From a virus: 37,376 nucleotides of DNA. Position numbers and translations under genes: made by a program. Positions 29,086 through 34,659 of the stretch are shown piece by piece (the stretch's first letter is position 1; each line of letters opens with the position of its first letter). Under the pieces are notes generated by a model. The model was not told where the DNA came from. It searched no databases and was given only the letters and a program-made list of their open reading frames with translations. The stretch covers positions 1 to 37,376 of the IMG/VR virus record IMGVR_UViG_3300021409_000085; one strand, written 5' to 3'.

Positions 29086-29315
29086 TCTTGCTCGGCCCCG
29101 TCGATTGTGGCGGTGCTGCTCTTGAATGGCACGCGGGTGGTGCCGAACAATGACGGGATGCCACGGTAGTCAAAGGCACCTTCGCGCAGCACGCCGCCGC
29201 GAGCGCGATTGCGCTCGGACAGCGGCCGCATCACAGGAGCAGGCCCTACGGCCGTTTGCACCATGCTGAGTTCGGCCAGGTCGACGAGATCCGCGAACGT
29301 TGCGCTCGGCTTCAT
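29082..29315 (-). CDS. Small hypothetical protein upstream of the primase (77 aa)
   Basis: A 77-residue protein. An N-terminal helix-like region (SATFADLVDLAELSMVQTAV) is followed by a basic, Gly-rich tail (RPLSERNRARGGVLREGAFDYRG, then LFGTTRVPFKSS). It overlaps the CII-like gene at its start and the primase-helicase at its end (ATGA at both). It therefore belongs to the early leftward operon and is probably translated with them. I do not recognise a family. Size and position fit a replication accessory or host-takeover protein. Confidence 0.6.
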   Translation of the reverse strand: MKPSATFADLVDLAELSMVQTAVGPAPVMRPLSERNRARGGVLREGAFDYRGIPSLFGTTRVPFKSSTATIDGAEQE

Positions 29316-29824
29316 GCGCCCTCCGGCTTCACTGGGGTGCCGTACACGCGCATCGTCAACGCGACCAGCTCGGAGATTGTCTTCTGCATCTCGTCCGCGC
29401 CGGCACGCAGCATTGCCTCTTCGCGCCGGTCGATATGGTCGTCCGCCGTGGCCTGGTTGAAGTCGCTCGAGAAGCTTCCCAGTTTGGCGTACAGCTCGTT
29501 GAACTTCTTCAGCAGGTCGACGTTGTCGATCTCGACTTCCGGCAGTTTGACGAACGTGCCGCCGCTGACTGCAGCGACCGCTTCAGCGAAAAAGGTTGTG
29601 CCCGAAAACTTCTGCATCTGCAGCGCGGTCTCGATCAACAGACCTTGGCCCTTGCGCTCGTAGATGCGATTTTCGAGCGCGTCACGGCTCATGCCGAGGG
29701 CGCAAGCAATCGCATCCCAACCGCCAGGGAAGGCCTTGATCATCGAGAGGCAAGATTTCCTAATGTCCACAGTGAACCCCTTTGCTTGTGGTTGTTGCTG
29801 AAGGCTCGACGAAATATCATTCAT
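29312..29824 (-). CDS. CII-like phage regulatory protein (CP76/YmfL type)
   Basis: A 170-residue regulator. The N-terminal region DIRKSCLSMIKAFPGGWDAIACALGMSRDALENRIYERKGQGLLIETALQMQ has the composition and helix layout of the phage regulatory CII/CP76 (YmfL) family. The probable helix-turn-helix lies at IACALGMSRDALENRI. The helical C-terminal half (NVDLLKKFNELYAKLGSF) may mediate oligomerisation. It sits directly after the cro-like gene, as CII does in lambda. The start at 29824 lacks a clear ribosome-binding site; the next Met in this frame would remove conserved sequence. By analogy it may influence the lysis-lysogeny choice. Confidence 0.75.
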   Translation of the reverse strand: MNDISSSLQQQPQAKGFTVDIRKSCLSMIKAFPGGWDAIACALGMSRDALENRIYERKGQGLLIETALQMQKFSGTTFFAEAVAAVSGGTFVKLPEVEIDNVDLLKKFNELYAKLGSFSSDFNQATADDHIDRREEAMLRAGADEMQKTISELVALTMRVYGTPVKPEGA

Positions 29825-29923: not shown

Positions 29924-30196
29924 TTACGGGTCGACTGGGTCGAGAAGCTTGTCGATGCTCGGGCACGGGGTGGTGCTGGGTATGAGTTCGGGCCAAATCC
30001 GCTGCCAGTCATCTGGAAACATCTCTCGGCGCGTTACCAGTCCTCCTGTCGCCGATTCAATCGCAGCTGCATGTATGACGGGTACTGATCTCGTCCCATC
30101 CGCCCATCGACTGAGGTCAGGCGCATGGGCGCCAATGGCCTTAGCCAATGCAGCTTGGCGTCCGCGCTTCTGAGAAAGGTAGGTTTTGATGTCCAT
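29924..30196 (-). CDS. Cro-like YdaS-type helix-turn-helix regulator
   Basis: A 90-residue DNA-binding protein of the YdaS/Cro group, transcribed divergently from the repressor. The helix-turn-helix is RQAALAKAIGAHAPDLSRWADGTRSVP, with the ALAKAIG helix and PDLSRWADG recognition helix. A C-terminal MFPDDWQRIWPEL is also typical. ATG at 30196 is preferred over one 36 bases upstream because the latter would read through the operators. The minus-strand promoter (TTGCTT at 30232-30227, 16 bp, TATACT at 30210-30205) would give an RNA starting almost at the ATG, so it may be leaderless. It probably represses cI transcription and commits to lytic growth. Confidence 0.82.
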   Translation of the reverse strand: MDIKTYLSQKRGRQAALAKAIGAHAPDLSRWADGTRSVPVIHAAAIESATGGLVTRREMFPDDWQRIWPELIPSTTPCPSIDKLLDPVDP

Positions 30197-30204
30197 GGTA
30201 CTGG

Positions 30205-30232
30205 AGTATAGCGATTCGCTAAACAAAAGCAA
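30205..30232 (-). promoter_or_regulatory. Leftward early promoter (cro)
   Basis: Minus strand: -35 TTGCTT (30232-30227), 16-bp spacer, -10 TATACT (30210-30205). It overlaps operators 1 and 2. The start site would fall within a few bases of the cro ATG. Confidence 0.6.
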
Positions 30233-30269
30233 TAGCGAATCGCATATTTCAATGTTTAGCGATCTGCTA
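30209..30269. promoter_or_regulatory. Three CI/Cro operators spaced 24 bp
   Basis: Operator 1 is TAGCGATTCGCTA at 30209-30221 (perfect palindrome around a central T). Operator 2 is TAGCGAATCGCAT at 30233-30245 (near-perfect). Operator 3 is TAGCGATCTGCTA at 30257-30269 (one mismatch). Starts are exactly 24 bp apart. The lattice lies between the divergent cro and cI start codons and covers both promoters. Confidence 0.85.
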
Positions 30270-30273
30270 TCTA
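30246..30273 (+). promoter_or_regulatory. cI promoter, weak -35
   Basis: A -10-like TATCTA at 30268-30273 overlaps operator 3. A poor -35 lies around 30246-30252. Transcription would begin near 30280, leaving almost no leader before the ATG at 30282. Confidence 0.45.
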
Positions 30274-30281
30274 ATGCTCAG

Positions 30282-31028
30282 ATGCAAACAAATGATGAAG
30301 TGCGCCGACAGAACCTCGAAATCGCGATCAAGCGCGCGGGGTCAGCTGCCAAGCTCGCTGAAAAAGCGAAAACATCGGCGGCCTACCTCAGCCAGATCAA
30401 GAACCGTACGCCCGATAGCAAGTCGGGTACCCCGAAAACCATGGGGGACGACATGGCTCGCCGCATTGAGAGCGCTTTGGGAGAGCAACTTGGATGGATG
30501 GATGTTGACCATAACCGGCCATTTTTCGCGCCTGGTGAGCTAGACGAGTTACTTGCTGGCGCCGAACTTAATCCGAGGCGCGTTCACGCTTCTGGAGCGG
30601 ATGACCCGAACTTAACGCAGATCCGCAAGGTCAAGCTGCAGGTGCAAGCTGGCATAACCGGTTTCCAGGTGGAGCCAGTGCACGATGACGGCGACACCCA
30701 AGGTGTGCCGACAAAATGGATTTTGAAAGAAGGCCTGAGCCGTGACGCGCTGCTGGCCATAACAGTCCGCGGCGAAAGCATGGAACCAGCGCTCTACGAA
30801 GGTGATGTGATCGTGGTGAACACCCGGGATACGGCGTTAACGGATGGTGCCGTGTACGTCGTGAATTACGAGGGCGAGGTCGTCGTTAAGCGGCTGCAGC
30901 GCGACGCCGGCCAGTGGTGGCTGACCTCGGACAACGCCGACCAGCGGAAGTTCCACAGGAAGTTGTGCAAGGGCGCCGAGTGCATTTTAATCGGCAAGGT
31001 AATTCGTAAAGAAAGTACGCACATTTAA
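30282..31028 (+). CDS. CI repressor with LexA/S24 peptidase domain
   Basis: A 248-residue prophage repressor. The N-terminal helix-turn-helix covers about residues 5-60 (LEIAIKRAGSAAKLAEKAKTSAAYLSQIKN). The C-terminal S24 domain has the Ala-Gly cleavage site at residues 123-124 (QAGITG), the Ser nucleophile at 166 (RGESMEP) and the Lys at 203 (EVVVKRLQ). It should therefore self-cleave under RecA stimulation, making the prophage SOS-inducible. ATG at 30282 (MQTNDEVRR) is chosen because the cI promoter would start transcription just before it. An in-frame ATG at 30252 lies between operators 2 and 3, upstream of the predicted start site, and has no ribosome-binding site. It probably represses both the leftward promoter and the promoter at 31546-31573. 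Confidence 0.9.
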   Translation: MQTNDEVRRQNLEIAIKRAGSAAKLAEKAKTSAAYLSQIKNRTPDSKSGTPKTMGDDMARRIESALGEQLGWMDVDHNRPFFAPGELDELLAGAELNPRRVHASGADDPNLTQIRKVKLQVQAGITGFQVEPVHDDGDTQGVPTKWILKEGLSRDALLAITVRGESMEPALYEGDVIVVNTRDTALTDGAVYVVNYEGEVVVKRLQRDAGQWWLTSDNADQRKFHRKLCKGAECILIGKVIRKESTHI

Positions 31029-31068
31029 AAGGGCGCGACGACATGCCAAGATATGGACAAAGGAGCCC

Positions 31069-31422
31069 ATGAAGAAGTTCGCTTTGTTATTTGTGTTGTT
31101 TTGTGGCTTAGCGCATGCTGGGCCAAAGGAGACGCGCCTTGTCGCGACGTCAAAAGCGATCTTGGCCGACCAACTGAAAGACCCTGACTCGGCTAAATAC
31201 CGGCGTGTGGCTGTTATCCGCGGATCGGTTTGCGGTGAGATCAACGCAAAGAACAGTATGGGCGGCTACGTCGGCTACAGGCGATTCATGGTGGTGGACG
31301 AGTCTTCCGCAATTGACGATGACAGTGCACAGTTCGAAGAGCTATGGGGCACTGCGTGCGTTAAAAATCCACCGAAGCCGCTTTCGCCCACGCACTGGAG
31401 CGACGCCAGGCTGAAAGACTAA
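31069..31422 (+). CDS. Small exported protein, moron-like (117 aa)
   Basis: A 117-residue protein with a clear signal peptide (MKKFALLFVLFCGLAHAG, cleavage after AHA). The mature domain, about 98 residues, has DQLKDPDSAKYRRVAVIRG, SVCGEINAKNSMGGYVGYRR, and two Cys that could form a disulfide. I recognise this CGExNAKNSxGGYVGYRRF pattern from small periplasmic proteins of unknown function in proteobacteria. It has its own AAAGGAG ribosome-binding site and is followed by a strong terminator. It lies directly after cI, so it could be expressed from the lysogen. This is the classic place for a lysogenic conversion gene. Host benefit, for example envelope alteration or superinfection exclusion, is unknown. 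Confidence 0.75.
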   Translation: MKKFALLFVLFCGLAHAGPKETRLVATSKAILADQLKDPDSAKYRRVAVIRGSVCGEINAKNSMGGYVGYRRFMVVDESSAIDDDSAQFEELWGTACVKNPPKPLSPTHWSDARLKD

Positions 31423-31456
31423 AACCGGAGCGAGACGTTCTCGTCCTATCCTCAAT

Positions 31457-31480
31457 GCCCCGATAATCGGGGCTTTTTTT
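31457..31480 (+). terminator. Intrinsic terminator after the moron gene
   Basis: Stem GCCCCGA, loop TAA, stem TCGGGGC, then seven T on the plus strand. It ends the cI-moron transcript and insulates the following promoter. Confidence 0.92.
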
Positions 31481-31522
31481 CGCCCTTACGATCTGGAACT
31501 GTCGCACCATCGCTAACGTCTT

Positions 31523-31573
31523 TAGCGCGACGCTACATTAATTGCTTTACTTAGTTTAGCGATTCGCTATAAT
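31523..31573 (+). promoter_or_regulatory. CI-controlled rightward promoter with two operators
   Basis: A perfect operator copy TAGCGATTCGCTA (31557-31569) overlaps a consensus -10 TATAAT (31568-31573). A weak -35 lies near 31546-31552. A second related palindrome TAGCGCGACGCTA lies at 31523-31535. It drives the rightward operon of small genes, ParB, xis and int. The match to the cro/cI operators shows that CI probably represses it. Confidence 0.75.
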
Positions 31574-31629
31574 CAGTCTTCGAAACGAGCTCAGCACCCG
31601 CTGTGCTTCACTTGGAGGACTGACCAGCG

Positions 31630-32436: not shown

Positions 32437-34659
32437 GTGACCCTACCACCACCCCTCTCGCCTCATGACGCAGCGACTGCCGACGCGCAAGCGCTGCACG
32501 CCTTGGATGACGGCTACTACGGCCTGTTCGAAATCGCCAAACTGCGCGCGTCGCCCGACAACCGCAAGCGCTTCAATGAGCAGGCGCTGCAGGAGCTGGC
32601 CGCCAGCATCAAGTCGATGGGCGTCGCCCAGCCGATCCTGATCCGGCCCGTCGCGCCGACCGACGAGGACCCGGCGATTTTCGAGATCGTCGCCGGCGAG
32701 CGCCGCTTCCGCGCGTCGAAGATTGCCGGCATGGAGACGATCCCCGCGATGTGCCGCACGCTGAGCAACCTGGACGCGGCGAAGATCCGCATCCTGGAGA
32801 ACCTGCAGCGCGAAGACCCGCACCCAATGGAAGAAGCAGAGGGCTACCAGCTGCTCATGCTGCAGCACGGTTTCACAGCCGATCAGCTGGTCGACGAGGT
32901 CAAGAAAAGCCGCGCCTATATCTACGGCCGCCTCAAGCTGTGCGCGCTGACGCCCGAGGTGCGCGAGCAGTTCCTCGAGGACAAAATCCCAGCGTCGACG
33001 GCACTGCTGATTGCGCGCATCCCTGTGCCGGCACTGCAGGCGAAAGCCCTGGGCGAGATCCTGAACCCGCCGGTATGGCAAGGTAACGAACCCCTCTCCT
33101 ATCGCAAGGCGGTCGAACACATCCAGACACGCTACATGCTGGACCTCTCGACCGCGGTCTTCAAACTGAACGACGGCAAGCTGCTGGCCGCTGCCGGCAG
33201 CTGCGTGAAGTGCCCAAAGCGCGCCGGGAACCAGCCGGAGCTATTCCCTGGCGTTCGTGCAGACGTCTGCACTGATCCGGAATGCTTTGCGGAGAAGAAG
33301 GCTGCGCATCACAACGCGACCATCGTCGAGGCGAATAAGGCCGGCGTGCCGGTGCATGAGGGCTTGGAAGGCCTCAAGCTGCACGAGGCAAGCTGGCAAC
33401 GCTCGGCCGAGCTGGTCAACACCAATGCGCATATCAGCTACTTCGCGCGCAATGCACCCTCGACCGGGAACCAGGGAGTGATCGGAAAGTACCTCGATGA
33501 CGAAGCGCTGCCGCCCGTCGCGGCCTACGTCAAGAACAAGGCTGGCGAACCCGTCCCCCTGTACAGCCGCGAGTCCATTCAATCGGCGCTGGAAGCAGTT
33601 GGCGCATGCGAAACGGTCGAGGGCCACGCCGAGCGCATGCGCGCGATCGAGGCGGATCCAAGCAAGGCGCCACCGAAGTCGGACTTCCAGCTCCGCCAGG
33701 AACAGGAACAGCTGGAACGCCAGGCGGCGTTTGAGGCTGCCGAGAAGGAAAGTGCTTTCAGGCTCGCGCTGTACAAACAGTTGCGACAGCGCGCCAGCAT
33801 TGACGGCCTCGGCTTGGCATCGCTGCGCGAATACACCAAGGCGGTAACCGAAGAACACGACTTGAAAGCGGTCTTGCACGATTTGTACGAGCACGATGTC
33901 CGCACCGACCTGGATTCGTTCATCGCCACTGCCGACTCCGGCACGCTGCAGTTGCTGCTGATTGATTTGTTCCTGGGCTCCATGCTTAAGGTGGACTGGT
34001 ACGCCCTCAAGAATGGCACTGCCGGCGATGACGGCTTCGAGACAATCATGGCTATGTCCCGCCATGAAGGCATCGATCCGGTCCAGGTGCGCGAAGAGCT
34101 GTTCCCGTCGCCGATCGACGTCACGCCAATGCAATATGGCGACCTGGTCGCGTTCATCGGTAACTACCCGCAGCGGCTGGCCGAGCTGACCAGCATCGTG
34201 CTCGAGCATCCGCGCGGCGAACTGGTCGGCATGCTCGAGCGGGCCGCAACCGAACACGGATACGTGTACAAGGACCGCGCATTTGTCCGCCTGGACGAGA
34301 CGCCGGCCGAAGCGCCGGAGCCGCCTGCAGCCTTGGCGGTAGACACCGCGGCGCCGATGGTGGGCGACGGTAGTGACGCGGCCGACGATGCCGACGACCT
34401 TGCCGAGCAGCTGGAACAGGTCGAAGCGGCCAAGCCAGTAACGAAAGCAACAAACCCAAAGTCCACGAAATCCAAAGCGGCGCCGGCAGCAACCAAGGAC
34501 GCGAAGAAGGCGGCGTCGGCGAAGTCCTCCGGCAAGACTACCAGGAAGGCGCCCGCAGCCGCCTACGACGATAGCCCTTGGCCCTTCCCCAAATCGTCGA
34601 CAGAGCCCCGTGATGGCGCGACGGTTGGCTCGCCGGCAGGCACGGAGGTGGCAGCATGA
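32437..34659 (+). CDS. ParB/RepB/Spo0J-like protein without ParA partner
   Basis: A 740-residue ParB-family protein. The N-terminal domain has ASIKSMGVAQPILIRPV, the nucleotide-binding motif EIVAGERRFRASKIAG (about residues 83-98), and ILENLQREDPHPMEEAEGYQLLM. A KorB-like helix-turn-helix follows near FTADQLVDEVKKSRAYIYGRLKLC. A Cys cluster near residues 254-285 (SCVKCPKRAG, then DVCTDPECF) suggests a zinc site. The long C-terminal half has helical regions and a Lys/Ala-rich tail (about 665-715). Start is GTG at 32437, with an AGGAG site. No ParA or parS of the standard type is adjacent. The gene itself carries palindrome copy 3. It may be a DNA-binding regulator, or a clamp or segregation factor. 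Confidence 0.85.
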   Translation: MTLPPPLSPHDAATADAQALHALDDGYYGLFEIAKLRASPDNRKRFNEQALQELAASIKSMGVAQPILIRPVAPTDEDPAIFEIVAGERRFRASKIAGMETIPAMCRTLSNLDAAKIRILENLQREDPHPMEEAEGYQLLMLQHGFTADQLVDEVKKSRAYIYGRLKLCALTPEVREQFLEDKIPASTALLIARIPVPALQAKALGEILNPPVWQGNEPLSYRKAVEHIQTRYMLDLSTAVFKLNDGKLLAAAGSCVKCPKRAGNQPELFPGVRADVCTDPECFAEKKAAHHNATIVEANKAGVPVHEGLEGLKLHEASWQRSAELVNTNAHISYFARNAPSTGNQGVIGKYLDDEALPPVAAYVKNKAGEPVPLYSRESIQSALEAVGACETVEGHAERMRAIEADPSKAPPKSDFQLRQEQEQLERQAAFEAAEKESAFRLALYKQLRQRASIDGLGLASLREYTKAVTEEHDLKAVLHDLYEHDVRTDLDSFIATADSGTLQLLLIDLFLGSMLKVDWYALKNGTAGDDGFETIMAMSRHEGIDPVQVREELFPSPIDVTPMQYGDLVAFIGNYPQRLAELTSIVLEHPRGELVGMLERAATEHGYVYKDRAFVRLDETPAEAPEPPAALAVDTAAPMVGDGSDAADDADDLAEQLEQVEAAKPVTKATNPKSTKSKAAPAATKDAKKAASAKSSGKTTRKAPAAAYDDSPWPFPKSSTEPRDGATVGSPAGTEVAA
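33257..33272. repeat. 16-bp palindrome GTGCAGACGTCTGCAC, copy 3
   Basis: A perfect palindrome inside the parB-like gene, read as R-A-D-V-C-T around the Cys cluster. It is identical to the copies at 17813 and 24275. Confidence 0.95.

Follow-up and report, generated by a model that had tools for sequence, protein, structure and literature searches.

A 37,376-nt stretch of viral DNA, hereafter the window, carries what we consider, with high confidence, a temperate phage's immunity region, built around a lambda-type CI/Cro switch. Three related operators lie between divergent cro and cI genes and overlap two divergent predicted promoters. The same operators recur at a second early promoter beyond cI (31523 and 31557), and this recurrence is conserved in relatives. 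The locus is best described as an ordinary lambda-type switch with a new operator specificity. A first-pass annotation had proposed an arrangement like OR/OL, with CI able to silence both arms, and promoter register, conserved layout and co-variation of the operators with the CI N-terminal domain all support that proposal. We infer CI binding, cI activation, autorepression, CI cleavage and Cro binding.

The operators are flanked by the genes expected of such a switch. The annotation had placed three sites between a cro-like gene and cI, and this is correct: the leftward neighbor is of the YdaS/P22-Cro type, and cI is read rightward.

29312-29824, minus strand: CII-like regulator, adjoining cro (Pfam Phage_CP76, 2.8e-12; phrog_101, CII-like activator)
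29924-30196, minus strand: Cro-like repressor (Pfam YdaS, 1.7e-11, and P22_Cro, 1.6e-4; phrog_35)
30282-31028, plus strand: cI repressor, 248 aa (N-terminal HTH; C-terminal Peptidase_S24, 7.9e-21)
31069-31422, plus strand: small predicted secreted-protein gene between cI and the right operator (phrog_2320)
31457-31473, plus strand: terminator-like hairpin with a T-run, closing the cI transcript

A leftward primase gene follows the CII-like gene, and the YdaS-type Cro, CII-like and primase genes stand in lambda order. A longer cI reading frame starting at 30186 was rejected for the ATG at 30282, because the predicted promoter would start the transcript there and relatives share this start. In relatives, the interval between cI and the distal operators holds a variable accessory cassette of small secreted or lipoprotein-like genes. 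This cassette occupies a position like that of rex in lambda, and its genes are candidates for lysogenic conversion or exclusion. The right early operon encodes a 740-aa ParB-like protein (ParB_N and HTH_ParB, 32437-34659), with an integrase further on.

Five operator sites make up the two-ended array.

30209-30221: operator 1 (OR1-like), TAGCGATTCGCTA, exact, a perfect 13-bp palindrome, found by sequence reading, pattern search and position weight matrix (PWM)
30233-30245: operator 2 (OR2-like), TAGCGAATCGCAT, 2 mismatches, a strong half and a weak half
30257-30269: operator 3 (OR3-like), TAGCGATCTGCTA, 2 mismatches, the lowest-scoring of the five
31523-31535: distal operator 2 (OL2-like), TAGCGCGACGCTA, 3 mismatches, degenerate, 34 bp upstream of OL1
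31557-31569: distal operator 1 (OL1-like), TAGCGATTCGCTA, an exact palindrome

Sequence reading and pattern search both recovered the annotated starts at 30209, 30233 and 30257, spaced exactly 24 bp apart, a spacing similar to the 23-24 bp of lambda OR. The reported exact copy at 31557 is likewise present and overlaps a TATAAT (31568-31573), which covers the last two bases of the site. The annotation had spoken of palindromes; the copies at 30209 and 31557 are perfect ones, and the other three sites are imperfect. At the middle site, 30233, one half is good and one is poor, and relatives keep the same asymmetry.

A matrix built without the window singles out exactly these sites. Within the window, the motif at up to three mismatches occurs 8 times against 7.0 expected, which is background level, so the degenerate copy at 31523 could not be accepted from the window alone. 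An exact copy, by comparison, appeared in 0 of 200 simulated windows. We then trained a PWM on 20 sites, all taken from four relatives and none from the window, and the five reported sites emerged as the top 5 of 37,360 window positions (scores 29.4, 29.4, 21.0, 17.1 and 14.1; next position 10.6). The 31523 copy ranks fourth with this matrix and its 34-bp offset is conserved, and on these grounds it is upheld. Scoring of the 37,360 positions yielded no sixth site of comparable score, and a stoperator-like scatter of sites over the window was looked for and not found: there are five sites, all at promoters. Two sites rather than three are among the top-ranked matches on the distal side, and relatives have two there as well.

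The operators sit in register with three predicted promoters.

30205-30232, minus strand: predicted cro promoter (PR-like), TTGCTT-16-TATACT, 8 nt before the cro ATG
30247-30275, plus strand: predicted cI promoter (PRM-like), TTTCAA-17-TCTAAT, 6 nt before the cI ATG, without a Shine-Dalgarno sequence
31546-31573, plus strand: predicted right early promoter (PL-like), TTTACT-16-TATAAT

The 30209 site lies inside the spacer of the cro promoter and overlaps its -10, and the 31557 site lies inside the spacer of the right promoter and overlaps the -10 there; operator register is therefore nearly identical at both. The 30257 site falls inside the spacer of the cI promoter. Between them, the 30233 site adjoins the cI -35, touches the cro -35 and is centered at -43 of the cI promoter, whose predicted start is 30282. 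That promoter is weak against consensus (TTTCAA/TCTAAT). In lambda, OR2 is centered at -42 of PRM and CI bound there activates PRM, and we read -43 as an activation position because of this precedent.

This geometry suggests how the switch would work. CI dimers would bind TTTAGCGAATCGCTAAA-like operators. At 30209, together with 30233, CI would shut the leftward promoter for cro, CII and primase; at 31557, together with 31523, it would shut the rightward early promoter. CI thus very likely silences both arms. CI on 30233 would be placed to activate the cI promoter, and CI on 30257 to turn it down. Some of these sites are probably also bound, with a different preference, by the Cro-like YdaS protein, which probably silences both arms as well. 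DNA damage would lead to RecA-stimulated CI self-cleavage and release of both arms. The residues for such a reaction are present in CI and conserved in relatives (Ala123-Gly124, Ser166 and Lys203), consistent with cleavage at the Ala-Gly bond via a Ser/Lys dyad. The CI structure model is of moderate quality (mean pLDDT 79, linker uncertain). Its C-terminal domain best matches lambda CI (2ho0, E 8e-8) and aligns to the lambda CI octamer structure 1kca with a TM of 0.76 on target.

The layout is conserved among relatives that use different operator sequences. Searches with CI found relatives in a Massilia prophage and at 22 viral loci. A scan of genome contigs gave the Massilia sequence as its one CI relative; the others are viral contigs, for the most part from metagenomes. 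When the region was compared with phage records by BLASTN, the matches were short and confined to primase, so no close characterized phage was found in these records. Relatives with a recognizable cro-cI region fall into four operator types: A, that of the window (TAGCGATTCGCTA), B (TAGCAATTTGCTT), C (TTTAGTAAGTGCTAAA) and D (TTTATCAATTGATAAA). The 24/24 lattice is kept in relatives L028, L007, L009 and L010, where a second pair lies exactly 34 bp apart, equal to the 31523/31557 offset. In all type A relatives, operator 1 stands at -73 from the cI start. We compared distal pairs in 16 loci of types A-D. Beyond cI, at a right early promoter, the window and all A-D relatives with enough downstream sequence carry another pair of their own type, spaced 34 bp in type A, 25 bp in B and 23-24 bp in C and D. 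The gap between the two operator sets is ~1.3 kb in the window and about 1.1-2.3 kb in relatives, and its phase is not fixed. The type C repressors (L014-L018) have a strikingly short N-terminal domain that aligns without one helix of the usual HTH; their loci still carry a full operator set.

Operator sequence follows the N-terminal domain of CI. When OR1 was matched to downstream regions, mean identity was 0.90 within a locus's own type and 0.67 across types, and own-type matching was reached by 0 of 20,000 label shuffles. Two relatives separate the halves of the repressor. L028 agrees with the window at 82% over the CI N-terminus and 26% over the C-terminus, which is unrelated, and its operators are the same. 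L011 shows the reverse, with 39% at the N-terminus and 94% at the C-terminus, and its operators differ at both ends. DNA similarity with L028 ends at 30503 and that with L011 starts at 30600, at the CI domain boundary. From these natural swaps, operator sequence follows the CI N-terminal domain independently of the C-terminal domain. We also scanned more widely, without bias, 72 loci that have the CI C-terminal domain in common: a palindromic 17-mer common to the cI-upstream and downstream sequences, at 14 or more of 17 matches, occurred in 51% of the 72 loci and in 3.1% of locus pairs with different N-terminal domains. By eye, these loci contain ~ten or more distinct operator sequences, including TTAAACATGGTGTTTAA, GTATAGGGATTCTATAC and ATACACGTTTTGTGTAT. 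The count is a by-eye estimate because a single-linkage clustering of the N-terminal domains, which we discarded, joined plainly distinct types on the strength of shared linker sequence.

Three other readings of the palindromes bear on this switch. They could be primarily sites for the YdaS-like Cro, with CI using overlapping but different repeats. The genes allow for this: cro, OR and the CI N-terminus form one continuous stretch that tends to be swapped as a unit, and since cro adjoins OR and tends to move with the CI N-terminus, co-variation cannot separate CI from Cro sites. The precedent is the cryptic prophage CP-933P, in which YdaS and the CI analog use two overlapping repeat classes that are partly different (PMC8630535). 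Against this reading, the operators stand where a lysogenic repressor must act, every relative with sufficient sequence also has a matching pair guarding the distal promoter, and no other class of repeat of similar quality was found in the window region. The example of lambda, where CI and Cro share sites, also counts against it, and we consider primary use by Cro unlikely. The palindromes might instead be chance or structural repeats without regulatory function, and the window does contain 24 perfect 6+1+6 palindromes, with the looser motif at chance level. Exact repetition, promoter register, the rank of the five sites under an independent PWM, conserved spacing and N-terminal co-variation all speak against it; conservation, the relatives-only PWM and co-variation rule this reading out, and we give it next to no weight.

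The remaining question is whether the CI-bound ends of the switch touch. The first-pass annotation had raised DNA looping over about 1.3 kb, and CI-mediated looping over that distance is possible. Both arms could equally be repressed by two independent operator sets without long-range contact: each set alone is predicted to block its own promoter already, and the variable distance of about 1.1-2.3 kb in relatives, with no fixed phase, suits independence. Two observations pull the other way, neither of them proof of looping, namely that the distal pair persists in all relatives whose sequence reaches far enough, and that the CI C-terminal model resembles octamer-forming lambda CI. We put independent action only slightly below an even chance.

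Both repressor mRNAs look leaderless. In nearly all A-D relatives examined, 6-8 nt separate the end of the -10 element from the start codon at both cro and cI, and a Shine-Dalgarno sequence is mostly absent, which is why we read the two messages this way. In the window, the cro (start codon at 30196) and cI (start codon at 30282) transcripts are predicted to begin on the start codon or no more than a couple of bases from it. The promoter scan gave an ambiguous result for cI in two type B loci and for cro in L017; two type D cro genes have a GGAG upstream. Lambda cI and CP-933P paaR2 are known leaderless mRNAs (PMC8630535).

The right early promoter is followed by a shared leader element.

31580-31606, plus strand: leader element after the right promoter, hairpin CGAGCTCAGCACCCGCTGTGC, common to relatives of all operator types

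Most close relatives, of any operator type and with different downstream genes, carry a short leader, CATCGMAACGAGCYCAGCA, directly after this promoter (for example, L007 7235-7285 and L014 6918-6960). The hairpin arms covary, with GCUC/GAGC in 16 loci and GCCC/GGGC in 10. Rfam gave no match in the window. The window's own leader folds no better than shuffles (z -0.16), while the leaders of several relatives folded better; the hairpin claim therefore rests on the relatives. The element may act in antitermination or translation control.

These results point to a two-ended operator switch of the lambda type in a group of phages that has been little studied, and make a predicted operator sequence available for direct testing. 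The relatives serve as natural domain swaps and indicate which of the two CI domains recognizes the operators. They also supply orthogonal repressor/operator pairs and offer a way to predict mutual immunity among these phages. A wider picture can be sketched tentatively, and we grant it clearly less than even likelihood. Immunity specificity would be exchanged as a module of cro, OR and the CI N-terminal domain, with OL 1-2 kb off, while the CI C-terminal domain stays almost the same and the leader hairpin behind the right promoter is kept. Such exchange would leave ~ten or more naturally orthogonal repressor/operator pairs on one scaffold, alongside leaderless cro and cI and a right-leader RNA element, perhaps for antitermination.

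Lambda is the closest model for the overall plan. As in lambda, three operators lie between divergent cro and cI and a distal set lies at the other early promoter; CI is an S24 protein with Ala-Gly and Ser/Lys; a CII-like gene adjoins cro; an accessory gene follows cI; and the cI mRNA is likely leaderless. Unlike lambda, the window has a Cro of the YdaS/P22-Cro type, its cro also looks leaderless, and its distal sites number two rather than three, lie 1.3 kb away and are spaced 34 bp apart. Three operators per side are a feature of lambda itself and are not required of every lambdoid phage. The window operator is also unrelated to the lambda consensus TAtCACCGCcaGTGaTA (PMC10742460). Lambda's two sets of three operators are ~2.3 kb apart and looped (PMC5880393).

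CP-933P, a cryptic prophage of E. coli O157:H7 encoding PaaR2, YdaS and YdaT, is the nearest studied parallel for the Cro side. There, YdaS acts as Cro, binding and promoter repression have been measured, and PL is repressed by both regulators (PMC8630535). The mRNA of its CI analog is leaderless, and past the repressor operon there is a PL promoter that also has operators (PMC8630535). The window shares a YdaS-family Cro, a CI analog, operators at PR/PRM and further operators at PL. The repressors are different: PaaR2 is short (about 15 kDa) and is described as having no sequence similarity to CI, whereas the window CI has 248 aa and an S24 domain, and in CP-933P a toxin-antitoxin pair follows the repressor. 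CP-933P repeats are of the GTTTAGTAA type and resemble the type C operators, not those of the window.

Other phage groups show comparable divergence of immunity. The Gifsy repressors GfoR and GfhR, like those of the window group, are related proteins of heteroimmune phages with different operators (PMC3121763). They are uncleaved and need antirepressors, whereas the window repressor has a full S24 domain. Cluster A mycobacteriophages carry up to about 30 stoperators genome-wide, against five sites in the window, all at early promoters. In these phages, as in the window group, repressor and site sequence diversify together (PMC6550527).
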